Below are positions 5,851 through 33,446 of a DNA stretch of 64,000 nt, piece after piece. Below the pieces are notes generated by a model. The model made no database searches. It was not told the origin of the DNA and was given only the letters and a program-made list of their open reading frames with translations. A program made the translations under genes and the position numbers. The stretch spans positions 62,001 to 126,000 of the forward strand of contig MGPE01000006.1 in assembly GCA_001797335.1 (NCBI GenBank), in the 5' to 3' direction. Numbering within the stretch: position 1 is the first letter of the stretch; each line of letters starts with the position of its first letter. This DNA is from Deltaproteobacteria bacterium GWA2_38_16. GTDB taxonomy: Bacteria; Bdellovibrionota; JACOXK01; 2-02-FULL-40-11.

Positions 5851-6474
5851 TTAAGGTTTGTAATTTTTATGGATAACTTCTAAGGCTTTTTTAGCTTCGA
5901 TATTTTCAGGGAAGTTCTCTTGTAAAGTGGTAAATTGCTCATAGGCCTCTTTCCATTTGAGTTCTGCCATCGCAATCCACCCTAGCGCTAATTGCGGAGA
6001 AACACTCCTAGGATAATCATTTTGCAGGCCACTAAAGTATTCTTTGGCCTTTATATATTTTTTCCCATAATAATAGATCCATCCCAGCTGTTCACGAGCT
6101 GCATAATTTTCATTATCAATCTTTAAAATTTCTAAATATTCTTTTTCTGCTTTCGTATAATTCGATAAAAAATAAATATAGGCCAGTCCTAACCGAGATT
6201 GGATGTCATTTGTATCTTCTTGAATTAATTCTTGAAAAAGGGCTGTACTTTCAGGATATTTTTTTTGAATACTTAAAATGGTGGCCTTTATTCTTCTCAA
6301 CTCCGTATCTTTTGGATCATATGTTAAAGCCTTTTGATAGTAAGAAAGCGCTTCCTCATATTTTCCTTCATAATAGGCTCGATCGCCTTCTTTTTTATCA
6401 TTTTTGGCTGTCGTACCTGCACATCCCCCTACCATCATTATTAAAAAACCCATTATTAAAACATTTTTATTCAT
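5851..6474 (-). CDS. TPR-repeat lipoprotein
   Basis: Exported lipoprotein with a lipobox (MMVGGCAG) about 20 residues from the chosen start and at least four TPR-like helical pairs with the Y-EGKYEEALSYYQKAL and LGWIYYYGKKYIKAKEYF signatures. The start is placed at the ATG overlapping the stop of the preceding barrel gene (TAATG); an ATG four codons upstream is also possible. It is the last gene of a three-gene envelope operon with the outer-membrane barrel and the 900-residue TPR protein. TPR lipoproteins usually scaffold protein complexes; the partner here is probably one of those two. Function unknown. Confidence 0.75.
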   Translation of the reverse strand: MNKNVLIMGFLIMMVGGCAGTTAKNDKKEGDRAYYEGKYEEALSYYQKALTYDPKDTELRRIKATILSIQKKYPESTALFQELIQEDTNDIQSRLGLAYIYFLSNYTKAEKEYLEILKIDNENYAAREQLGWIYYYGKKYIKAKEYFSGLQNDYPRSVSPQLALGWIAMAELKWKEAYEQFTTLQENFPENIEAKKALEVIHKNYKP

Positions 6475-10965: not shown

Positions 10966-11334
10966 ATGCCAAACATGAATGATCCCCAAAAAACTTCTTC
11001 TAGTCAGCAAGTAGAACGATACTTTGATCAATTTGCATTTTTAGATAGCAAACGCCATCTTTCCTTAGATATTCCTAAGCATCTTAAGATAGAGCTTTAT
11101 AAAGAAGAAGGTGGTTTTATCTTTGATAGCAATAATGGCCTTATTTATACCATAAATCAGGTAGCCGCTTTTATCCTCTCTCTCATCATCCATAAAAAAG
11201 GACAATATGGATTAAATGATATTACCCAGTTTTTGAAAACCACTTTTGATGTCACTGATCAAGAAGCTCAAGATGATATTATTGAATTTTTTTGCCATTT
11301 AAAAGACTTTGGAATGGAGGTCATCGCTGAATGA
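10966..11334 (+). CDS. PqqD-like small protein (peptide-chaperone fold)
   Basis: A 122-residue protein whose second half follows the PqqD pattern: a beta hairpin (GGFIFDSNNGLIYTINQVAAFIL) and a helical wing (YGLNDITQFLKTTF, then TDQEAQDDIIEFFCHLKDFGM). PqqD-type domains (RREs) bind precursor peptides and present them to modifying enzymes in RiPP pathways; related domains also occur in surface-polysaccharide gene sets. It heads a seven-gene operon and overlaps the following ATP-grasp gene by ATGA. An N-terminal extension of about 40 polar residues precedes the domain. No obvious precursor peptide lies within the operon, so the bound substrate is unknown. Confidence 0.65.
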   Translation: MPNMNDPQKTSSSQQVERYFDQFAFLDSKRHLSLDIPKHLKIELYKEEGGFIFDSNNGLIYTINQVAAFILSLIIHKKGQYGLNDITQFLKTTFDVTDQEAQDDIIEFFCHLKDFGMEVIAE

Positions 11335-12407
11335 ATCATCCTATTCACGTCGCTATTACAGGACTCCAAATGATGGACAATCCCTATCCCGGAGTTAGTG
11401 TTGCCCGAAGTCTTAAGGAAAGTCCCAGTTTTTCTGGAAAAATCATCGGCCTTTCGTATGATCTTCACTGTACAGGAAATTTCTCTCCCTATTTTGATGA
11501 CATTTTTTTAACCCCTTTCCCCTGGGATTCAGAAACACAGTGGCTTAATAGAATTGCCCAAATTCATCAAAAAATTCGGCTCGATGTCATTATCCCAACC
11601 CTGGATTCTGAAATAGCTCTTTTTTCTAAAATGTCTTTAACGTTAGAAAAAATGGGAATTAAAACATTCTTACCTTCTGAAATGTCTGTTAAAGCCCGAG
11701 CTAAAAATTTTTTACCCGAATGGTGCAAAACTCATCAAATTATTAAAACCCCCAAAACCATGGTGGTAGTTAATAAAAGTGAAATCGCTAAAATTGTAGG
11801 TACCGTAGGATATCCCTGCCTCATTAAAGGAGCTCTGGCCGATGCTTATATTGCTTATGATATCTATGAAGCCAGCGTTTTTTTTGACCGAATCTATTAT
11901 GGCTGGGGACTACCCGTCATTATTCAAGAATGTATTAAAGGAGATGATTTTGACGTTGTCGCTCTCGCTGGGAAAGATAGTACCCTCATTGGTGCTACCG
12001 CTATTAAAAAATTGGCCATTACCGATCAAGGAAAATGCGCCATTGCCAGTATTGTCAATGACGAACAATTATTTACCCTTACTCAAAAAATTGCTCACGC
12101 TTTAAAATGGGTAGGCCCGTTTGAAGTAGAAATGGTTTATGACGGCTTTAATAAAGAATTTTATTTGATTGAAATTAATGCACGGTTTCCCGCATGGATT
12201 TATTTAACAGCAAAAGCCAATTATAATTTACCTGAAAAACTAGTTCAGCTGGCCATGGGAGAAAATGTCTCTCCACTGCCTCCCTGTCAGAGTGAGCTTC
12301 TTTTTACACGCACCAAAGAAGATTATTTTTTTGAAGTTAATGCCTATAGCAAACTGGCTGCAACAGGAGAACTAAAAAAAGGAGATCTTCTCTGTGAAAA
12401 CTTATAA
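11331..12407 (+). CDS. ATP-grasp ligase (carbamoyl-phosphate-synthase-like)
   Basis: A 358-residue ATP-grasp enzyme. A pre-ATP-grasp Rossmann-like domain (HVAITGLQ, DVIIPTLDSEIAL) is followed by the nucleotide-binding subdomain with GYPCLIKGA (ATP-contacting Lys about residue 165) and metal-binding residues in GPFEVEMVY and YLIEINARFPAW. Such enzymes join a carboxylate to an amine, thiol or similar nucleophile through an acyl phosphate. The metal ligands are intact, so it is probably active. It overlaps its neighbours on both sides, and its downstream neighbour is a paralog. The substrate cannot be read from sequence; an amino acid or peptide ligation is plausible given the PqqD and decarboxylase neighbours. 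Confidence 0.75.
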   Translation: MNHPIHVAITGLQMMDNPYPGVSVARSLKESPSFSGKIIGLSYDLHCTGNFSPYFDDIFLTPFPWDSETQWLNRIAQIHQKIRLDVIIPTLDSEIALFSKMSLTLEKMGIKTFLPSEMSVKARAKNFLPEWCKTHQIIKTPKTMVVVNKSEIAKIVGTVGYPCLIKGALADAYIAYDIYEASVFFDRIYYGWGLPVIIQECIKGDDFDVVALAGKDSTLIGATAIKKLAITDQGKCAIASIVNDEQLFTLTQKIAHALKWVGPFEVEMVYDGFNKEFYLIEINARFPAWIYLTAKANYNLPEKLVQLAMGENVSPLPPCQSELLFTRTKEDYFFEVNAYSKLAATGELKKGDLLCENL

Positions 12408-13467
12408 TATTGCCATTACTGGATTTCATGCTACCTGTGAACCCACTGCGGCACAACACATTGCCCATAGTCTTAAAACCTCTAGCCGATTTGGAAATTC
12501 TAAACTCATTGCTTTAAATTACGATATCAACTGCGGAGGAAATTTTAATCCAACCAGCATTGATGAAGTATATGTGCTTCCCTCTCCCTTCGATAACGAA
12601 GATCGCTTTTACCACGCCCTGGTTAACATTCTTAAAAAAGCCAAAATTGATATTTTGATTCCAACGATGGATTTTGAACTTTCTTTATTCCCTCAATTTA
12701 AAGAACGCCTTTTAAAAGAGGGGGTAGATGTCATGATTGTCCTGCCTCAACAATATTATTTTCATAATAAACAAAAATTGTATCGCTTTTGCGAATCTCA
12801 AAAAATTCCTATGCCTTGGACAGTAGAAGTTATTAATCGCTATACCATTGATTATTATTCCCCCTATTTTATTTATCCACTTTTACTTAAAAACTCTAAG
12901 GGCCAAGAAATTTTTTGCTGCACATTAGAAGAGGTGTATGTTTTTTACCGTCGCCTTTTACGAGAACCCGCTAGCACCATTTATCTCCAAAACACTATCG
13001 GCGGTGAATTCTACAGTGCATGTCTTTTGTTCGGAAAATCTTCAGAAATTTTAGGAAAAATTATTGTTAAAAGAATTCTTGTAGCTCCCAATGGAGAAAC
13101 CTGGGGAGTATTAACCGTCACCGCTCCCCCTTTACAAGCAGTTTTAGATAATCTTCTTTTTAAATTGGGGATTACCTATGAAGGGCCCCTTGAAATTAAA
13201 TTTAAAAGAATTATAGGTACCGATATTTTTTATATTACCGATCTTAAAACACAATTTCCAACGTGGGTGCATCTGGCCACCAAAGCAGGACAAAATCTTG
13301 TGGAAACATATCTAAAATTTATTTTGGGAGAATCTGTAGAAAAATTGGCTCCCTATCAACCCGGCATGATGCTTATTAAAAGCGCGTACGATCAGGTATC
13401 CCCCACAAATAATTTAGGAAAACTCATTATGAAAGGAGAAATGACCTATGACAAAAAAGCAGCCTAG
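12394..13467 (+). CDS. ATP-grasp paralog with degraded metal site
   Basis: A 357-residue paralog of the preceding protein: the openings align (NIAITGFHAT...SLKTS and the YDI-C-GNF block), as do the PTMDFELSLFPQ and AGQNLVE regions. The metal-binding block IEINARF of the first copy reads ITDLKTQF here (E to D, N to K, R to Q), and EVEM reads EIKF (E to K). Two metal ligands are therefore non-conservatively changed, suggesting loss of catalysis and perhaps a regulatory or substrate-binding partner of the active copy. ATP-contacting Lys in YPLLLKN is kept. It overlaps the previous gene by 14 bases and the next by 20, so the set should be made stoichiometrically. Confidence 0.7.
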   Translation: MKTYNIAITGFHATCEPTAAQHIAHSLKTSSRFGNSKLIALNYDINCGGNFNPTSIDEVYVLPSPFDNEDRFYHALVNILKKAKIDILIPTMDFELSLFPQFKERLLKEGVDVMIVLPQQYYFHNKQKLYRFCESQKIPMPWTVEVINRYTIDYYSPYFIYPLLLKNSKGQEIFCCTLEEVYVFYRRLLREPASTIYLQNTIGGEFYSACLLFGKSSEILGKIIVKRILVAPNGETWGVLTVTAPPLQAVLDNLLFKLGITYEGPLEIKFKRIIGTDIFYITDLKTQFPTWVHLATKAGQNLVETYLKFILGESVEKLAPYQPGMMLIKSAYDQVSPTNNLGKLIMKGEMTYDKKAA

Positions 13468-14848
13468 TGATTTGCAAAAATATGAAAAACCTACCATTCA
13501 GCTTTTTTCTTTGCAAAATACAAGTCCTTATGAAGGGGTAAAATATAATGACGCTCTTCCCCAAGAAATTGATGGTGTTAATATTTTTACCATGCTTCAA
13601 AATTATGGGTCTCCTCTCTTTGTGATTTCTGAAAAAACATTACGAGAAAATTACAGATACATGGCTCAAACTTTTCAAAAACACTATGAAAAAACACACA
13701 TCAGCTATTCCTATAAAACCAATTATCTGTCTACGATTTGCGCTATTTTAAAAGAAGAAGGTGCCTGGTCAGAAGTTGTAAGCGGTATGGAATATGACAT
13801 GGCCGAGCGACTGGGGGTTCCTGGAAATAATATCATTTTTAATGGCTGCTATAAAAAACCTCATGAACTTTTAAAAGCGGCGTTAGGAAATACGCTCATT
13901 AACATTGATTCTCATGATGAAGCCATTCAATTAGAAAAAATTGCTTTAAAACTTAAAAAGAAAATTCCCGTTGGTATCCGAATTAATATGCGTCTTTCCA
14001 ATATGCCCTGGAATAAATTCGGTTTTAATTTGGAATCTGGCCAAGCCTATGAAATGTGTAAACGTATTTACACCTCTCAACTTCTAGAAGTACGTGGCAT
14101 TCATGCTCATATTGGAACCTATATTGCAGATCCTTTTTTGTATACGCAAGCTACTCGAGCTCTCGTACGATTTGCCCAATTTATCGAAGAGCAATGCAAT
14201 TTTAAAATTGAATATTTTGATTTAGGGGGAGGATTTCCTTCTCCCAATACCCTTCAGCAACAATTCCTACCTGCATCGTATCTCATCCCAAATATCGAAG
14301 AATATGCAAAAGCCATCTGTGGCCCTTTGAAAGAGTTCAAATCTCGTCATGGGATTAAACCAACGTTATTTTTGGAACCTGGACGAGCTCTTGTGGATAG
14401 CGCCATGACCTGTCTTACAACCGTGGTGGCCCATAAAACCATTGCTCAGAGTGTTCAAGGCATCATTATTGATACGGGAGTCAATATTCTTCCCACAGCC
14501 TATTGGTACGATCATGATATTTCCTGCGCGACAAAGAGTGCGATGTCCAGACAAGACACTGTTATTTTTGGGCCTCTTTGCATGCAAATTGATGTGGTAA
14601 GAAAGTATATTAAACTTCCTCCTCTTCAACGCGGAGATATTTTAATTATTAAAAATACGGGGGCTTATAACACTACTCAATCCATGCAGTTTATTTATAC
14701 ACGACCGGCCATCGTCCTTATTCATGACGGCCAAGTAGAAGTGGTTAAAAAAGCCGAAACCCTAGATGACATTCAACGCTTAGAAGAACTTCCCGAACGA
14801 TTAAAAAACAATGTCATGCCGTTTCAAAAAGAGAAAAAAGCAGCCTAA
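13448..14848 (+). CDS. PLP-dependent decarboxylase, LysA/ornithine-type (fold III)
   Basis: A 466-residue fold-type III PLP enzyme of the diaminopimelate/ornithine/arginine decarboxylase group. Visible landmarks are the PLP lysine in SYSYKTNY (K90), HAHIG, the phosphate-binding FDLGGGFPSP (about 257), EPGRAL (about 309), and the C-terminal GPLCMQID and NTGAYN blocks. The usual C-x-S-D substrate motif is altered (C-M-Q-I-D), so the preferred amino acid may differ from meso-diaminopimelate. It lies in an operon with ATP-grasp ligases and a urea-transporter homologue rather than lysine genes. Its likely role is making an amine or modified amino acid as building block; a racemase activity is less likely. 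Confidence 0.8.
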   Translation: MTKKQPSDLQKYEKPTIQLFSLQNTSPYEGVKYNDALPQEIDGVNIFTMLQNYGSPLFVISEKTLRENYRYMAQTFQKHYEKTHISYSYKTNYLSTICAILKEEGAWSEVVSGMEYDMAERLGVPGNNIIFNGCYKKPHELLKAALGNTLINIDSHDEAIQLEKIALKLKKKIPVGIRINMRLSNMPWNKFGFNLESGQAYEMCKRIYTSQLLEVRGIHAHIGTYIADPFLYTQATRALVRFAQFIEEQCNFKIEYFDLGGGFPSPNTLQQQFLPASYLIPNIEEYAKAICGPLKEFKSRHGIKPTLFLEPGRALVDSAMTCLTTVVAHKTIAQSVQGIIIDTGVNILPTAYWYDHDISCATKSAMSRQDTVIFGPLCMQIDVVRKYIKLPPLQRGDILIIKNTGAYNTTQSMQFIYTRPAIVLIHDGQVEVVKKAETLDDIQRLEELPERLKNNVMPFQKEKKAA

Positions 14849-15934
14849 ATGAAACCAGATTTTTTAGATTTTAACCATTATGAACAATCTGTGTGGAGTA
14901 ATCCTCTGATCCGCTTTATCGACACTATCCTAAGAGGGATGGCCCAAATGTTATTTTGCTACCACCCTATTTCTGGACTTTTATTTTTAATTGGAACTTT
15001 CGCCCTCTCTCCAGTAGCAGGAATGTATTCGCTACTAGGTCTCATGATAGCCACACTTACCGCTCGATTTTTAAAATGCAATCCTTACCTTATTAACATT
15101 GGTATTTATGGATATAATGCCGCTCTTTTAGGAATATATTGGATTTTTTTTGACACTTTTTCCATTTCTCTTCTTTTTTTATTTATCGGCATGTGTATTC
15201 TAACCGTTTTTTTAGAGCACTTCTTCTTAGTAAAAGTATCTTCTAGCCGATGGGGACTTCCGGCCATTAGTTTTCCCTCACTTTTTTCGATGTGGATAGG
15301 GGTTAGTCTTGCCTATCTTTTTAAACTCGTTCCCTATCCCATTTCTATTGATAGGTTAGAAGTCACCACCATTAATTTTTTTGCAAATCCAGATTATGAA
15401 CTTTTAGGAACCTACTTATGGGATCATCTGGGAGGAATTATTCTTATTGCCATGGGGATTCTTTATAATTCTAGAATTAGTTTTTTCTTTACAGCCATTT
15501 CTTTTACTCTAGCCACCGTCATTTCTCTTTTTTTAGGAGGGAATTCTTTACCTTACTGGAATGATATTTATTACAATTTAGTTCCTATGAGCATTGCTCT
15601 TGGAGGATTTTATTTTGTGTTTAATAAACACATCATTTTTTATACTTTTTTAGCCATGATCCTAACTACCACTTTGTTTTACGGTATGCACAATTTCTTT
15701 CATTCCTTTGGATTTCCTACCTTAATCTATCCTTTTAATATGGTTGTTTTTGCCGTATTGTGTGTTTTTGCCAAAGGAAGTTTATCCTTTGAAAAATTTT
15801 TTAATGCTTATCGAGTCCCTCTGATCGTATGTAAAAGACCCGAATCAATTCTTCAGTGGCACCAAGAACACATGGAGTCTTATCATTATTGGAATAACTT
15901 AAACTCCCAACAAAATAGAAAGGCGGCCGCATGA
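14849..15934 (+). CDS. Urea transporter family membrane protein
   Basis: A 361-residue protein with about ten hydrophobic segments and two homologous halves. The NIGIYGYNAALLGIYW and ISLFLGGNSLPYW areas resemble the urea-channel selectivity-filter regions, and the WDHLGGIILIAMGILYNSRIS segment is typical of the UT family. Members passively conduct urea or related small neutral solutes across the inner membrane. No urease or agmatinase gene is nearby, so it might export a urea-like by-product of the operon or import a substrate. It begins directly after the decarboxylase stop and overlaps the sirtuin start (ATGA). Confidence 0.75.
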   Translation: MKPDFLDFNHYEQSVWSNPLIRFIDTILRGMAQMLFCYHPISGLLFLIGTFALSPVAGMYSLLGLMIATLTARFLKCNPYLINIGIYGYNAALLGIYWIFFDTFSISLLFLFIGMCILTVFLEHFFLVKVSSSRWGLPAISFPSLFSMWIGVSLAYLFKLVPYPISIDRLEVTTINFFANPDYELLGTYLWDHLGGIILIAMGILYNSRISFFFTAISFTLATVISLFLGGNSLPYWNDIYYNLVPMSIALGGFYFVFNKHIIFYTFLAMILTTTLFYGMHNFFHSFGFPTLIYPFNMVVFAVLCVFAKGSLSFEKFFNAYRVPLIVCKRPESILQWHQEHMESYHYWNNLNSQQNRKAAA

Positions 15935-18703: not shown

Positions 18704-20071
18704 CTATCCCCAAAATGTCAAAATCACTCCCTTTAAACATAAAAAAATTAAAAGAAGTGAAAGAAAAGATATCCCATACTTGAGAGCCCGGGTAAAAACA
18801 GTAGGTTTATCCGTATAGTCAGAAATCACATAGTGCATATCGAGTTCTAAGAGAGGATTTAAATTAATTAACCCAATCACGTAGGAACACAGCGCCACTA
18901 TCCAACAATTTACACAACCAGTTATCCCTCCTATCCATGCAAAAACGGCTGAAAACACAAAGTGGCTATAAGGACCTGAGAGAGACACCACCATTCTGGG
19001 CCATTTGGGTAAAAGCCACATATCTGATGTATCGACAAACACCATGGGACTTATCCAATGCCACCCAAACCCCATGCCATACACTTTTCGACCATAGCTT
19101 TTGGTTGCAAAAGCATGCGCCATCTCGTGGATCAAAAATGAAAGCAGCACTCCCCCAAAAACGATGGGAAGGGAAAAAGACGCATTTTCTTTTAGAAGAT
19201 CCATCATAGATTTCCAGCGCAGAATAAATATCCCTATCCCACTGATTGAAAACAAGGTTAAGACCACAAACGCTTTCGTCGTAAAAAAAATCTTAAAACC
19301 AGAATTATAAATTTTAGTGAGTATAGGGTCCACATTTTTAAAAATAACCGTTGCCGTAAGACATCTTTTAATCCCTAGCATTATTTTTTGAAGCCAGCTC
19401 ATTCGAAAAGCAATGGCTGTTACATCTTTTTTTAAAAACCGCTTCTTTAAAAAACCTTTCGCTTCTAGCCCAGCGATAACATCGGCAATTTGATGGGGGG
19501 CAAAGGTCTTAAATTTAGCCAGATATTCTAAAGTTAAATCTTTCAAATGATGTTTTCCGTCTAAAAGTTGCCAAATAAACCATCCTTCAGAAGACAGTCG
19601 ATAGTAGGCCTGTGTCAGGGGATTTTTTAAAATCGTCATCGTACGTCCCTCTTCTAGATATTGCTCTACATCGACATTGGAGAGTCTCTTGGGGCGACTT
19701 CTTAGAGTGAGTAATTCGATAATCTGACTTGAAATTGTGTTATCAAAACCCAATAATTCTAATAACTCTTTGCGCTTTAAAATAATAACGGTGGATTTTT
19801 CCACTGTTTTTACAGAGGCATTCCGAGGGGCACCGGTTAAGAGAGCCGCTTCTCCAAACACACTTCCGGGACCGAGCGTTGCCAATACTCTATCGTTTGA
19901 AACTTCGCGAAGGATAACTTCAACACTTCCACTTAAAAGAACATAGCACACATCTCCCCGCTCATTTTGCCGGATAATTTCAATATGGGCAGGAAATGTT
20001 TTTTGTTCAAGTCGCTCTAAAAAAGAGTGAGAGGCCTGCTTTAAAATCTCAGGAAGAGGAGAAAGAATCAC
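18704..20071 (-). CDS. cNMP-binding / PqqD-like / M50 protease fusion
   Basis: A 455-residue three-domain protein. Residues about 10-110 are a cyclic-nucleotide-binding domain (GDVCYVLLSGSVEVI, GSVFGEAALLTGAPRNASV). About 145-212 resembles PqqD (TILKNPLTQAYYRLSSEG, then a helical wing). From about 230 comes a membrane-embedded M50 site-2 protease with zinc motif HEMAH (316-320) and NLNPLLELD (third ligand D412). The GTG start overlaps the stop of the 66-residue NHLP-like gene (GTGA), so the two are coupled. A plausible reading is that the PqqD domain recruits the small protein, the metalloprotease cleaves it at the membrane, and a nucleotide controls the process. Arrangement and domains are visible; the pathway is inference. 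Confidence 0.8.
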   Translation of the reverse strand: MILSPLPEILKQASHSFLERLEQKTFPAHIEIIRQNERGDVCYVLLSGSVEVILREVSNDRVLATLGPGSVFGEAALLTGAPRNASVKTVEKSTVIILKRKELLELLGFDNTISSQIIELLTLRSRPKRLSNVDVEQYLEEGRTMTILKNPLTQAYYRLSSEGWFIWQLLDGKHHLKDLTLEYLAKFKTFAPHQIADVIAGLEAKGFLKKRFLKKDVTAIAFRMSWLQKIMLGIKRCLTATVIFKNVDPILTKIYNSGFKIFFTTKAFVVLTLFSISGIGIFILRWKSMMDLLKENASFSLPIVFGGVLLSFLIHEMAHAFATKSYGRKVYGMGFGWHWISPMVFVDTSDMWLLPKWPRMVVSLSGPYSHFVFSAVFAWIGGITGCVNCWIVALCSYVIGLINLNPLLELDMHYVISDYTDKPTVFTRALKYGISFLSLLLIFLCLKGVILTFWG

Positions 20072-20268
20072 GCGCCTTTATTAATACGTGATTTTAACTC
20101 TTCATCGGATAAGGACCAATCAACGTGATTTAATAAATCCATTTCTTCTTTGGTAAGCCGAATGCCGCTCGTTTGAACAGCACTCTTTGGATCTTTTCGA
20201 ATCAGCTCTCTAAATTTTTTGTCATTAATCCATTTATCAATCAATTTCCCCACTTCTTGCATACCCAT
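20068..20268 (-). CDS. NHLP-clan-like 66-residue peptide, copy 1
   Basis: A small acidic/basic helical protein without cysteines. Its pattern (KLIDKWINDKKFRELIRKDP, then LTKEEMDLLNHVDW and SDEELKSRI) matches the nitrile-hydratase-alpha/Os1348-type NHLP leader family: a short helix, an F-x-x-L-x-x-DP turn and an LT-x-E-E helix. In that clan such domains are leader peptides of RiPPs. Here no extended core follows; the chain stops 14 residues after the last leader motif. The RBS AAAGGAG is well placed and translation is coupled to the PqqD-M50 gene. It could alternatively be a regulatory subunit or anti-toxin-like partner of the protease. Confidence 0.7.
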   Translation of the reverse strand: MGMQEVGKLIDKWINDKKFRELIRKDPKSAVQTSGIRLTKEEMDLLNHVDWSLSDEELKSRINKGA

Positions 20269-20286
20269 ATGTTTTCTCCTTTTGTT

Positions 20287-20312
20287 GTCATTCCCGCCAA
20301 GAGCGGGAATCT
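20287..20312 (+). repeat. REP-like palindrome in the NHLP copy 1 leader
   Basis: Inverted repeat ATTCCCGC-CAAGA-GCGGGAAT, of the widespread REP-like type. It sits between the promoter and RBS of NHLP copy 1; the homologous leader of copy 2 lacks it, so it was inserted after (or lost since) the cassette duplication. Confidence 0.75.
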
Positions 20313-20338: not shown

Positions 20339-20368
20339 AGAATACTTAATTGAACCTATCTTTTTCAA
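20339..20368 (-). promoter_or_regulatory. Promoter of NHLP copy 1 / M50 cassette
   Basis: TTGAAA-N18-TATTCT on the minus strand. The same hexamers and spacing occur at the second NHLP copy although the spacer bases differ, which supports a real promoter kept under selection. Confidence 0.6.
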
Positions 20369-20432: not shown

Positions 20433-21794
20433 CTAAATATTTTTGAGAATTTCTCTCCATCGAAAAATCAAATAAAACGGAATAGAAAGAAGTCGATATT
20501 GTAACTTTGTGCCGGTTGGCAACGTTACCAGATGACTTTCAACTTTAAGCGCCGCTTGGTTATAAAAACGAACTCCAATAGTGTAAGAGCTCCTTGAAAG
20601 AAATTGGTGAAGCGATTTAAGCGAACCATGGCTACCTGATTTAACCTCGATGGGAATAAGTTCATTTTCAAAGGGAACCAAAAAATCAAGCTCTGAAGAA
20701 CTCCCCTTTTCTTCACGAATCCAAAAAAATAATGTATTACGATTATAAAAATCACATGCCAATAATTCCTGCCCCACAAATGTTTCTAATAATCCCCCTT
20801 GATAAAAGGGATCAATAAGCTGCGCATGAATTTGCTTTTGAGCTATATGAAGAGATTCTGTACAAAGTCCTACATCAAGAAAAATTGCTTTTGGTGCTGC
20901 TTTTGGTTTTCTAACCAGCGGAGGTTGTGTTTGTGTAGTTGGAAAAATTCTTTCTACAAGCATGGCCTCATGCAAAATATCAAATGCTCTTGAAATCTCT
21001 TTTGAACGAACTTCAGATCCTGCTAGTTTTGAATATGTAATCCTTTTCCCAATTTCAAAGGGAACTCGATCCCAAACCAATTTCAGGTGCTCAGTCTCTG
21101 CCCCCTTCGAATATTTTGCGAAATCTTCTTTAAATGAGGAGACCAATATTTCATGGCATTGTTTCACAGTAATAAAACTTCCATTTTTTATATATTCATT
21201 GACAGCCTCCGGCATCCCACCCACAACCATATAATCCGAAAGTAAGCCTACAAGCTTATCATGCACAGGTCGGGGCAAGGAGCTTCCAATCTTAAGCTCC
21301 ATTAATGATTGAAGAAGAATCTCTTCACCATTCACTAATAAAAACTCGTCAAAAGTAAGTGGGTATAAATAAAGAAACTCTACTCTTCCCACAGGAAAGG
21401 ACCAACCTTCACTTCTCATACGCACTTCCAAAAGTGAACCAGCACCAATCACATGAAGATTGGGTAATTCTTCATAAAAATAACGCAGTAATTTTATGGC
21501 AACTTCAGAATTTTGGATCTCATCCAGGAAGAGAAGGGTTTTTTTCGGAATAACCCTCTTATTTGAAACTCCTTCAATGCTTTTGACAACTTCTTTTATA
21601 TCTTGAACCTCAGAAAATATTTTTCGGTTGGCGTCCTTTTCTAGATTTAACTCAATAAAATTTTCAAATTGACGCCCAAGATTTCTGACCAGTGTTGTCT
21701 TGCCTGTTTGTCTAGCCCCACGGAAGATAAGAGGTTTTCGAATTTCTTTGTTTTTCCACTTTTGTAGTTCTTGATCAGATTTTCTTACAAACAT
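20433..21794 (-). CDS. DUF4143 AAA ATPase with PD-(D/E)XK-like tail (1)
   Basis: A 453-residue ATPase of the AAA_14/DUF4143 family. Walker A is GARQTGKT (about 26-33), Walker B LLFLDEIQN (about 88-96), then a sensor region GAGSLLEVRM, a DUF4143 winged-helix middle and a C-terminal restriction-like core with SELDFLVPF and IPIEVKSG. The family is common and scattered in bacteria and archaea but has no settled function; a role in defence or selfish DNA has been considered because of the nuclease-like end. The gene lies between two copies of the NHLP cassette. Its promoter places the transcript start at the ATG (leaderless) and includes a repeated palindrome. Confidence 0.85.
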   Translation of the reverse strand: MFVRKSDQELQKWKNKEIRKPLIFRGARQTGKTTLVRNLGRQFENFIELNLEKDANRKIFSEVQDIKEVVKSIEGVSNKRVIPKKTLLFLDEIQNSEVAIKLLRYFYEELPNLHVIGAGSLLEVRMRSEGWSFPVGRVEFLYLYPLTFDEFLLVNGEEILLQSLMELKIGSSLPRPVHDKLVGLLSDYMVVGGMPEAVNEYIKNGSFITVKQCHEILVSSFKEDFAKYSKGAETEHLKLVWDRVPFEIGKRITYSKLAGSEVRSKEISRAFDILHEAMLVERIFPTTQTQPPLVRKPKAAPKAIFLDVGLCTESLHIAQKQIHAQLIDPFYQGGLLETFVGQELLACDFYNRNTLFFWIREEKGSSSELDFLVPFENELIPIEVKSGSHGSLKSLHQFLSRSSYTIGVRFYNQAALKVESHLVTLPTGTKLQYRLLSIPFYLIFRWREILKNI

Positions 21795-21863: not shown

Positions 21864-21933
21864 GCCTATCCCCAAAATGTCAAAAAGAGTGAGAGGCCTG
21901 CTTTAAAATCTCAGGAAGAGGGGGAGCAATCAC
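21864..21933 (-). pseudogene. Remnant of a second cNMP/PqqD/M50 gene
   Basis: Only the two ends of a duplicated protease gene remain. The start side encodes VIAPPLPEILKQASHSF and then hits a stop; it matches the first 17 codons of the intact gene apart from two substitutions. This is joined directly to the last 20 or so bases of the intact gene (matching 18702-18723). The junction lies in an AAAA run shared by both ends. About 1.3 kb has therefore been lost in a single deletion. Confidence 0.8.
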
Positions 21934-22130
21934 ATACCTTTATTAATACGTGATTTTAATTCTTCATCAGAAAGAGTCCAATCGACATGACTTAACAAAT
22001 CCCATTCTTCTTTGGTCAACTTAATCTCACTATTTTGAACTGCATTTTTAGGATCTTTTCGAATGAGTTCTCTAAATTTTTTGTCATTAATCCATTTATC
22101 GATCAATTTTCCTACTTCTTGCATCCCCAT
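21930..22130 (-). CDS. NHLP-clan-like 66-residue peptide, copy 2
   Basis: Same length as copy 1, with identical residues 1-28 and eight substitutions overall (S29N, T33N, G35E, R37K, M43W, N47S, S52T, A66M). The RBS AAGGAGA is seven bases before the ATG and the promoter hexamers are conserved, so the gene should be expressed. Its own coupled protease gene has been reduced to a stub, so the product would have to be handled by the intact copy. The stop still overlaps the GTG of the stub. Substitutions cluster in the second half, as expected if the N-terminus is a recognition element. Confidence 0.7.
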   Translation of the reverse strand: MGMQEVGKLIDKWINDKKFRELIRKDPKNAVQNSEIKLTKEEWDLLSHVDWTLSDEELKSRINKGM

Positions 22131-22168
22131 AAAACATCTCTCCTTTTTCTAAACTACATTTAAAAAAG

Positions 22169-22198
22169 AGAATACCTAAAATGAGTTCTATCTTTCAA
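22169..22198 (-). promoter_or_regulatory. Promoter of NHLP copy 2
   Basis: TTGAAA-N18-TATTCT on the minus strand, with the same hexamers and spacing as for copy 1 inside an otherwise diverged leader. Confidence 0.6.
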
Positions 22199-32276: not shown

Positions 32277-33446
32277 ATGTTCAGAAGATTTTTATCCCCT
32301 TCAAATCATTCAAGTTTTTTCTTATTCGGAGCTCGTGGAACAGGCAAATCAACATGGCTTAAAAGCCATTTTTCACAAAAAAACATACTTTATTTCGATC
32401 TTTTGGATCCTGCCATTGAAAATCTATTTTTGACTCAACCACAACGCTTTAAAGAACAAATTCTTAACACACTTGGAAAGCAGCCAAAATTAGAATGGAT
32501 CATTGTGGATGAAGTACAAAAGTGTCCAGCCCTGCTCAATTACGTACATATGTTGATTGAAGAGAAAAAGCTTAAGTTTGCCCTCAGTGGCTCTAGTGCC
32601 AGACGCCTAAAACAAAAGGGGGTAAATTTGTTGGCAGGTAGAGCATTCATAGAACATCTCTTCCCACTAACACAGTGGGAGCTAGACGCTGATTTTGATC
32701 TACCCTCTATCTTAAGTTATGGGTCATTGCCACATGTATTTGACTTGCACCATCAACAGGAAAAAAAAGATTTTCTAAATGCGTATGCACTCACGTACGT
32801 TCAGAATGAAATTCAGGCTGAACAATGGATTCGCAAGCTAACCCCGTTTAGAAAATTTCTACCCATTGCTGCCCAAATGAATGGTAAAATTTTAAACTAT
32901 CATAAAATTGAAAAAGACATCGGTGTAGATTGGAGTACAATAAAAAATTATTTTGATATTTTAGAGGATACACTTATGGGTTTTCAATTAGAAGGCTGGC
33001 ATCAATCCGTTCGGAAACGACAACGACAGGCTCCTAAATTTTATTTTTTTGATATCGGTATCAAAAAAGCACTTGAAGGTTCTCTAGATCAAATACCCAC
33101 CCCTGGGACCGGATTTTATGGTGAATGTTTTGAACACTTTGTTATTTTAGAAATTTATAGACTTAACACACTCTTAAAAAAAGACTATACATTATCTTAT
33201 CTTCGAACGAAAGATGATGCTGAAATCGACATCATCATGAGTAAACCCGGAGTCCCTATACTTCTTATAGAAATCAAATCATCATCCAATATTACAGAAT
33301 CGGATATCACAAATTTATTAAACCTAGCTCGTGATATTCCAAATTCCAGGCCTTATGTTTTATGTCAAGAATCCATTCCTAGAAAAATAGGGCCTGTAGA
33401 AATTCTTCCCTGGAAACAAGGACTGGGAGAGATTGGGTTGACATGA
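32277..33446 (+). CDS. DUF4143 AAA ATPase with PD-(D/E)XK-like tail (2)
   Basis: A 389-residue member of the same family as the ATPase at 20.4 kb but only distantly similar. Walker A GARGTGKST (about 18-26), Walker B EWIIVDEVQKCP, sensor ALSGSSARRLK, DUF4143 core and a C-terminal nuclease-like block DAEIDIIMSK and PILLIEIKSSS. It is followed after a fragment of a PspC-like gene by hicAB, and all three lie between direct repeats. The stop codon overlaps the ATG of that fragment. Function of the family is not established. Confidence 0.85.
   Translation: MFRRFLSPSNHSSFFLFGARGTGKSTWLKSHFSQKNILYFDLLDPAIENLFLTQPQRFKEQILNTLGKQPKLEWIIVDEVQKCPALLNYVHMLIEEKKLKFALSGSSARRLKQKGVNLLAGRAFIEHLFPLTQWELDADFDLPSILSYGSLPHVFDLHHQQEKKDFLNAYALTYVQNEIQAEQWIRKLTPFRKFLPIAAQMNGKILNYHKIEKDIGVDWSTIKNYFDILEDTLMGFQLEGWHQSVRKRQRQAPKFYFFDIGIKKALEGSLDQIPTPGTGFYGECFEHFVILEIYRLNTLLKKDYTLSYLRTKDDAEIDIIMSKPGVPILLIEIKSSSNITESDITNLLNLARDIPNSRPYVLCQESIPRKIGPVEILPWKQGLGEIGLT

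Follow-up and report, generated by a model that had tools for sequence, protein, structure and literature searches.

The closest described systems each share some features with the locus presented here. In the classic NHLP or proteusin systems (PMC2887384), a leader of nitrile-hydratase-like fold ends in a Gly-Gly site and is served by a peptidase-type ABC exporter, whereas the present locus has the same kind of leader with an RxSK-type motif and an M50 protease. The precursor of the Os1348 cluster of Pseudomonas sp. Os17 (structure 6lk7) belongs, as here, to the NHLP clan of NF038399, but the partners differ: the cluster encodes GNAT, HEXXH-domain and SagB-type proteins, and M50, PPS (polyprenyl-synthetase-like) or cNMP proteins are not reported from it (PMC7726476). 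Tryptophan prenylation on an NHLP-type precursor has been demonstrated in vitro for PalX of Paenibacillus alvei, the enzyme being PalQ, which has the isoprene-synthase fold and keeps Asp200 and Asp204 (PMC10853753). In Bacillus, ComQ prenylates a Trp of ComX and needs a second Asp-rich motif other than DD, namely ND or GD, DD being unsuitable (PMC5331326). Finally, M50 proteases such as EpeP, TglG and TmoG act in RiPP pathways (PMC10885120).

The proteases of daptide (NF041824) and epipeptide (YydH/LiaK/EpeP; NF058609) maturation resemble the protein described here in their M50 core and, in the daptide case, in a PqqD-like region as well. Domains that bind cyclic nucleotides (cNMP domains) are present in the bacteriocin-transport-associated family TIGR03896. 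A precedent exists for each part of the present locus: for precursors of the NHLP clan, for M50 proteases of RiPP maturation, for an NHLP-type precursor prenylated at Trp and for cNMP domains. A combination of cNMP, M50 and PqqD domains, or of NHLP, PPS and M50 genes, is not described in the open-licence literature as far as our search found, which agrees with an earlier reading of the sequence alone, to which the arrangement was unfamiliar as a RiPP or signalling system.

The fusion protease

The locus lies within 64,000 nucleotides of the genome of Deltaproteobacteria bacterium GWA2_38_16, the whole of this analysed stretch being called the window and all coordinates referring to it unless another locus is named. 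The larger gene (18704..20071, minus strand) encodes a 455-residue protein whose domains were assigned through Pfam and NCBIfam profiles and an AF2 model of mean pLDDT 87. Residues 24-107 (19751..20002, minus strand) form a cNMP-binding domain, matched by PF00027 at 5.5e-19 (68.4 bits against a gathering score of 27.5), in which the phosphate-binding cassette, FGEAALLTGAPRNASV, retains its Glu and Arg; the modelled domain superposes on cAMP-bound CRP with a Z score of 16.3. A PqqD-like peptide-binding domain follows at residues 148-202 (19466..19630, minus strand), its match to PF05402 (1.9e-4, 22.1 bits) lying slightly below the gathering score of 23.4. This weak assignment is made good by homologues that exceed the gathering score (30.8 bits at L104 and 24.9 at L060) and by the confident model of residues 134-204 (pLDDT 83-95), a predicted β3α3 unit in which three strands (134-140, 143-150 and 155-159) are followed by three helices (161-169, 176-187 and 192-204).

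The M50 intramembrane metalloprotease core (18839..19153, minus strand) yields a sub-threshold match to PF02163 (1.2e-4, residues 307-381). NF041824 matches the PqqD and M50 parts together at 1.1e-26 over residues 135-441, with 93.9 bits against an equivalog cut-off of 300, while NF058609 reaches 33 of 225 bits; the match stops short of the cNMP domain, and the precursors of the daptide and epipeptide systems are different. The core has both the HExxH sequence (HEMAH, 19115-19129) and the distal Asp (in NLNPLLELD, 18839-18865) that are expected within the membrane helices of an M50 peptidase, accompanied by a third motif, FVDTSDMW. The M50 site is intact and proteolysis is predicted; 81 of 83 related proteins also retain HExxH. 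Fold searches with the fusion model had cNMP proteins alone among the matches listed and are therefore silent on the PqqD and M50 parts. The single chain with cNMP, PqqD and M50 domains that the sequence-only reading had proposed is thus borne out, including the PqqD similarity that it had placed at residues 145-212.

Small NHLP-clan proteins

Immediately upstream, gene A (20068..20268, minus strand) encodes a 66-residue candidate precursor, and its stop codon overlaps the protease start (...GGC GCG TGA / GTG ATT...), so that the two minus-strand reading frames have the positions and the GTGA coupling first noted. Protein A scores 53.2 bits and its paralogue B (21930..22130, minus strand; 88% amino acid identity) 51.1 bits against NF038399, whose curated cut-off is 40 bits, placing both in the Os1348-family NHLP clan; they are the only two NF038399 genes in the genome. 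PF14407 matches A at 1.1e-6. With the classic NHLP leader model TIGR03793 the two remain below the cut-off (19.2 and 14.1 against 50.9 bits). The AF2 model of A, only fair at pLDDT 73, reaches Z 5.5 against Os1348 and the borosin precursor SonA; a proteusin leader is a further, weak match. These fold matches and the NF038399 score uphold the NHLP character originally ascribed to the protein.

The differences between A and B are mostly silent (dN 0.089, dS 1.04, dN/dS about 0.09), indicating that the small protein is under selection, and both copies are conserved end to end. On reading the sequence of A, neither a Gly-Gly cleavage motif nor a variable core was found: the protein ends with RINK and two further residues, so the small proteins of the window have no obvious core peptide.

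Copies A and B lie in a direct repeat of 250 nt with 85% identity (20020-20269 and 21882-22131). Behind copy B, the repeat and its translation reveal a remnant of the protease start, V-IAPPLPEILKQASHSF-stop, about 17 codons long (21882..21932, minus strand), a truncated protease copy left by tandem duplication. The pair of small gene and protease was correctly described in the sequence-only reading, which nevertheless missed copy B, this remnant and the unlinked PPS gene discussed below. Promoter-like sites, TTGAAA-18-TATTCT, are present upstream of copy A (20339..20368, minus strand), in an upstream repeat common to B, and upstream of copy B (22169..22198, minus strand); what backs them is their conservation between the copies, since the promoter scan overall gave no excess over shuffles. 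A REP-like palindrome, TCATTCCCGCCAAGAGCGGGAATC, at about 20285-20312 separates gene A from its promoter-like site and has no counterpart before gene B. Between A and B, inside the duplicated precursor region, there is an ATPase gene (20433-21794, minus strand) which we take to be of AAA/DUF4143 (AAA_14) type; a second ATPase, presumably of the same type, is encoded at 32277-33446 (plus strand).

Distribution of the protease and its NHLP-clan neighbour

A search for relatives with the whole protein returned cNMP domains alone and was repeated with the PqqD-M50 part. Three of 290 genomes from the same phylum contain the protease subfamily, namely the window's own, G260 and G262, while close relatives of the own genome are without it. 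Other matches within the phylum were set apart: most are of a PqqD-M50-HlyD exporter type, with different architecture and no NHLP-clan gene, and that in G196 is weak, a generic M50 protein outside the subfamily. NF038399 genes occur in six of the 290 genomes, among them all three with the protease (P = 5e-6). The gene order in G260 and G262 is M50, a Cys-rich protein of 72-73 residues and an NHLP-clan protein, and the G262 protease bears two cNMP domains at its C-terminus.

Scanning 85,000 species yielded 80 protease loci. An NHLP-type gene was present on the retrieved stretch at 26 of these, once at E = 0.01 only, and NF038399 was found in 47 of the 50 host genomes tested, belonging to many phyla. 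Adjacency of protease and NHLP-clan genes, on which the first interpretation depended, recurs again and again, in several phyla; the arrangement is a family and not unique to its own genome. The co-occurrence counts, together with the dN/dS of 0.09 between the small genes, argue that the pairing is no accident.

In a protease tree, built by quick search, the window protein falls in a supported clade of proteins with N-terminal cNMP domains that spans at least seven phyla; Myxococcota, Elusimicrobiota, Cyanobacteriota, Pseudomonadota, Actinomycetota and Chlamydiota are represented, with Bacillota one step out. Many Chloroflexota homologues instead have cNMP domains at the C-terminus, and in four proteins from Actinomycetota and Bacillota (L104, L109, L113 and L124) an FHA domain takes the place of the cNMP domain before PqqD-M50. 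Since the cNMP domain may be at either terminus, with FHA elsewhere, the protease is repeatedly joined to a signal-sensing domain, in a family with swappable sensors. Genes resembling Ser/Thr kinases were seen near several FHA loci and some Chloroflexota loci.

Also recurrent beside the protease or the NHLP-clan gene is a Cys/His-rich protein of 70-116 residues with the pattern MNCxxCxxxAxxxCxFCGRxxCKDH (L039 9329-9547, L040 10377-10598 and eight Chloroflexota loci including L062 4321-4536). At L058, a 66-residue ORF (5871-6071) directly upstream of a cNMP2-PqqD-M50 gene has the end SFEELEKRKSK-MGWGCCCCSGPMNM, a precursor-like Cys-rich tail, and has no NHLP match.

A polyprenyl-synthetase-like partner

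A PPS gene of 327-374 codons adjoins the protease gene at L052, L053/L054, L055, L056, L059 and G536, mostly with the small gene too. Five of these proteins were tested with PF00348 and scored 44-52 bits; for most members the closest NCBIfam model is NF041169. Within the clade with N-terminal cNMP domains the operons usually include PPS, and operons of NHLP, PPS and cNMP-PqqD-M50 genes were found in Myxococcota, Cyanobacteriota, Elusimicrobiota and Pseudomonadota. Most pairs of protease and NHLP-clan gene, those of Chloroflexota among them, lack a PPS of this family. At L056, the PPS gene is next to a squalene-cyclase-like gene. The window's own genome has an intact PPS gene (337 residues, 38% identity, 482 bits) on another contig (C4), unlinked to the protease/NHLP locus and adjoining tRNA-gene-like sequence.

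The profile of this PPS matches the GGPP synthase 1wy0 at 4.8e-18. Its first Asp-rich motif, DDLAD, is intact, but the second, SDCYD, has lost its first Asp and is neither ND nor GD. All members of the family keep the first motif, and their second has SD or TD, as opposed to DD in the ordinary synthases of the phylum. ComQ is comparable as an FPP-synthase-like enzyme with an intact first and an altered second motif, acting on a small precursor with a Trp near its end; it differs in that its pseudo-SARM is ND or GD, ComX has no NHLP domain and the ComX protease is unknown. PalX/PalQ/PalP likewise combines an NHLP-type precursor with a Trp prenyltransferase of isoprene-synthase fold, an activity that is proposed here, but has a histidine kinase in place of the protease, no cNMP-PqqD-M50 protein, and the Trp as last residue of the precursor.

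True PPS members occur in two of the 290 own-phylum genomes, the window's own and G043. The PPS gene of G043 overlaps an NHLP-clan gene, whose product has no Trp at the place of Trp51 (see below), and no M50 gene stands beside them; L148 is a further case of PPS beside an NHLP-clan gene without M50. G003, of the same family and 83% complete, has an NHLP-clan gene, and a PPS gene was not found in it. Among 324 Elusimicrobiota genomes PPS is present in three, the same three in which NF038399 exceeds its cut-off (P = 1.8e-7).

Three loci of the cyanobacterial phylum (L154, L158 and L163) encode a large protein with an NHLP-like stretch, a PPS relative and a histidine-kinase-like protein, in an order like palX-palQ-palP; their PPS relatives are more distant. 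Family 2B encapsulins also associate cNMP domains with polyprenyl transferases, and were considered and set aside, no shell protein having been noticed at the loci read.

Trp51 and the C-terminal motif

Precursors from genomes with PPS have two Trp residues in common, the second being Trp51 in the sequence DWSLSDEEL. In protein A this residue opens a C-terminal element, W-SLSDEEL-KSRINK (20077..20118, minus strand), which is kept in PPS-linked precursors. Of the eight genomes with PPS that were read, seven have Trp51, as against none of 17 that lack PPS (Fisher P = 1.7e-5, a value inflated by shared ancestry). Conservation stops with R-x-[SN]-K which, in an alignment by eye, is in register with the Gly-Gly site of classic NHLPs (register and motif definition in PMC2887384). 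Variable tails come after the RxSK motif in relatives from Chloroflexota, Actinomycetota and Paenibacillus, and PPS-linked precursors have 1-5 residues there, except at L054, with 10.

In Azotobacter vinelandii, the two small ORFs upstream of PPS and protease end with W-ED-I-[AS]-DE-[ED]-L-xx-RISK, and an NHLP domain is absent from both. Since they carry the C-terminal element without that domain, the element is suggested to be what the enzymes recognise. We propose Trp51 as the prenylation site and RxSK/RINK as the protease-recognition motif. Once NHLP matches were removed, the motif [EDQGSTK][LF]xxRx[STN]K by itself showed no enrichment near the protease over distant positions, and it was therefore given weight in the analysis only in combination with an NHLP domain or the Trp.

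Proposed mechanism and alternatives

The set recurs in unrelated phyla, usually with PPS, and this points to an undescribed signal-controlled route to modified peptides. We regard it as probable, if by no means certain, that the locus as a whole is a maturation cassette that acts on an NHLP-clan peptide and is gated by a cyclic nucleotide. The peptide-maturation reading made from the window alone gains support in this respect but was incomplete, the PPS partner having been left out. It is that partner which suggests what the modification is, and prenylation, taken as a single step, seems to us somewhat doubtful. More tentative still is the complete scheme, a widespread prenylation-licensed, cAMP- or cGMP-gated intramembrane proteolysis in which the peptide becomes a membrane substrate only after Trp prenylation on its NHLP scaffold.

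According to the favoured reading, A and B would be precursors on the nitrile-hydratase-like leader fold, and PPS would act in trans to prenylate Trp51 before cleavage. The lipid tail might then bring the soluble peptide into the membrane, within reach of the intramembrane protease. In the fusion protein, the PqqD domain would capture and dock the precursor and the M50 domain would cut it, at the membrane or within it, the protease being switched by cAMP or cGMP through the N-terminal cNMP domain. The substrate role of the small protein, its prenylation, the cut site and the gating are each putative, as is the suggestion that the product finally serves as a secreted signal or an antagonist. 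What the sequences themselves show is domain content, intact active sites, recurrent operon linkage, co-occurrence and purifying selection, to which may be added the altered second Asp motif of PPS, the correlation of Trp with PPS and one cyclase-coupled homologue.

That homologue is at L060 (4257-7858), where the gene for a CHASE2-class III cyclase overlaps a cNMP2-PqqD-M50 gene by 4 bases. A class III cyclase domain has one match in the window's own genome, in a protein resembling the L060 CHASE2 cyclase by sequence, and this cyclase could supply the cyclic nucleotide. Against this reading, the L060 homologue has lost its protease active site (QELGH) and is possibly a pseudoprotease receptor. 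Further points against it are the small proteins' conservation throughout, with no obvious core after RINK, the Trp-less precursor of G043 with no adjoining M50, and the distance of 15 residues between Trp51 and the C-terminus, the Trp of ComX and PalX being nearer to the end. The Trp/PPS correlation is, moreover, confounded by shared ancestry.

The unlinked PPS of the own genome and the PPS-less G003 likewise weigh against the favoured reading, and they speak for the first alternative, in which the same cassette operates without prenylation: the peptide would be unmodified or otherwise modified, and PPS would make an isoprenoid small molecule and merely travel along. Most protease/NHLP pairs do have no PPS of this family, and the squalene-cyclase-like gene at L056 is what a terpene pathway would show. 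We nonetheless think this alternative unlikely, given the lost first Asp of the second PPS motif, the PalX/PalQ precedent, the way in which Trp51 tracks PPS and the position of PPS beside NHLP-clan genes even where M50 is missing (G043 and L148).

Less likely again is that the small proteins are stable partners of the protease, whether regulators, adaptors or inhibitors, in cNMP-controlled signalling with some other substrate. End-to-end conservation at a dN/dS of 0.09 with no variable core behind the motif would fit such a role, as would the precedent of Os1348, a stable full-length dimer with no known product (PMC7726476). Tandem copies (2-4), such as often occur with precursor genes, tell against it, as do relatives with long variable tails behind the same RxSK motif, the match of the fold to precursors and the precursor binding known for PqqD domains. 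A fortuitous neighbourhood, in which the protease is of the ordinary site-2 type and the small gene has nothing to do with it, would suit the lack of the protease in close relatives of the own genome but is scarcely credible beside the GTGA overlap, the operon linkage repeated in distant phyla and the co-occurrence (P = 5e-6 and 1.8e-7), and has in practice been refuted by the survey.

If the favoured reading is true, this would be a RiPP maturation route with a processing protease that is itself equipped with a second-messenger sensor and a domain for docking the precursor. The described range of Trp prenylation on NHLP-type precursors, a single Paenibacillus cluster, would widen to several phyla, mostly of uncultured bacteria, and delivery of the substrate by a lipid tail would provide a reason for an intramembrane protease in a peptide pathway. 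A related locus exists in a lab strain, Azotobacter vinelandii, which makes the idea directly testable.

Other genes in the window

The window contains a second PqqD gene, in a PqqD/ATP-grasp cluster (10966-14848) that was considered as a partner of the protease and rejected: some 4 kb separate the two, the strands are opposite, and genes of this kind were not seen beside the homologous operons. The run of genes at 10966-15934 (plus strand) encodes a stand-alone PqqD protein (33.5 bits), two PylC-like ATP-grasp proteins, a PLP decarboxylase (DAP/FslC-like) and a urea-transporter-family protein, followed by a SIR2 deacylase and an HGSNAT-like protein. It looks like a separate biosynthetic cluster for a peptide- or amino-acid-derived product.
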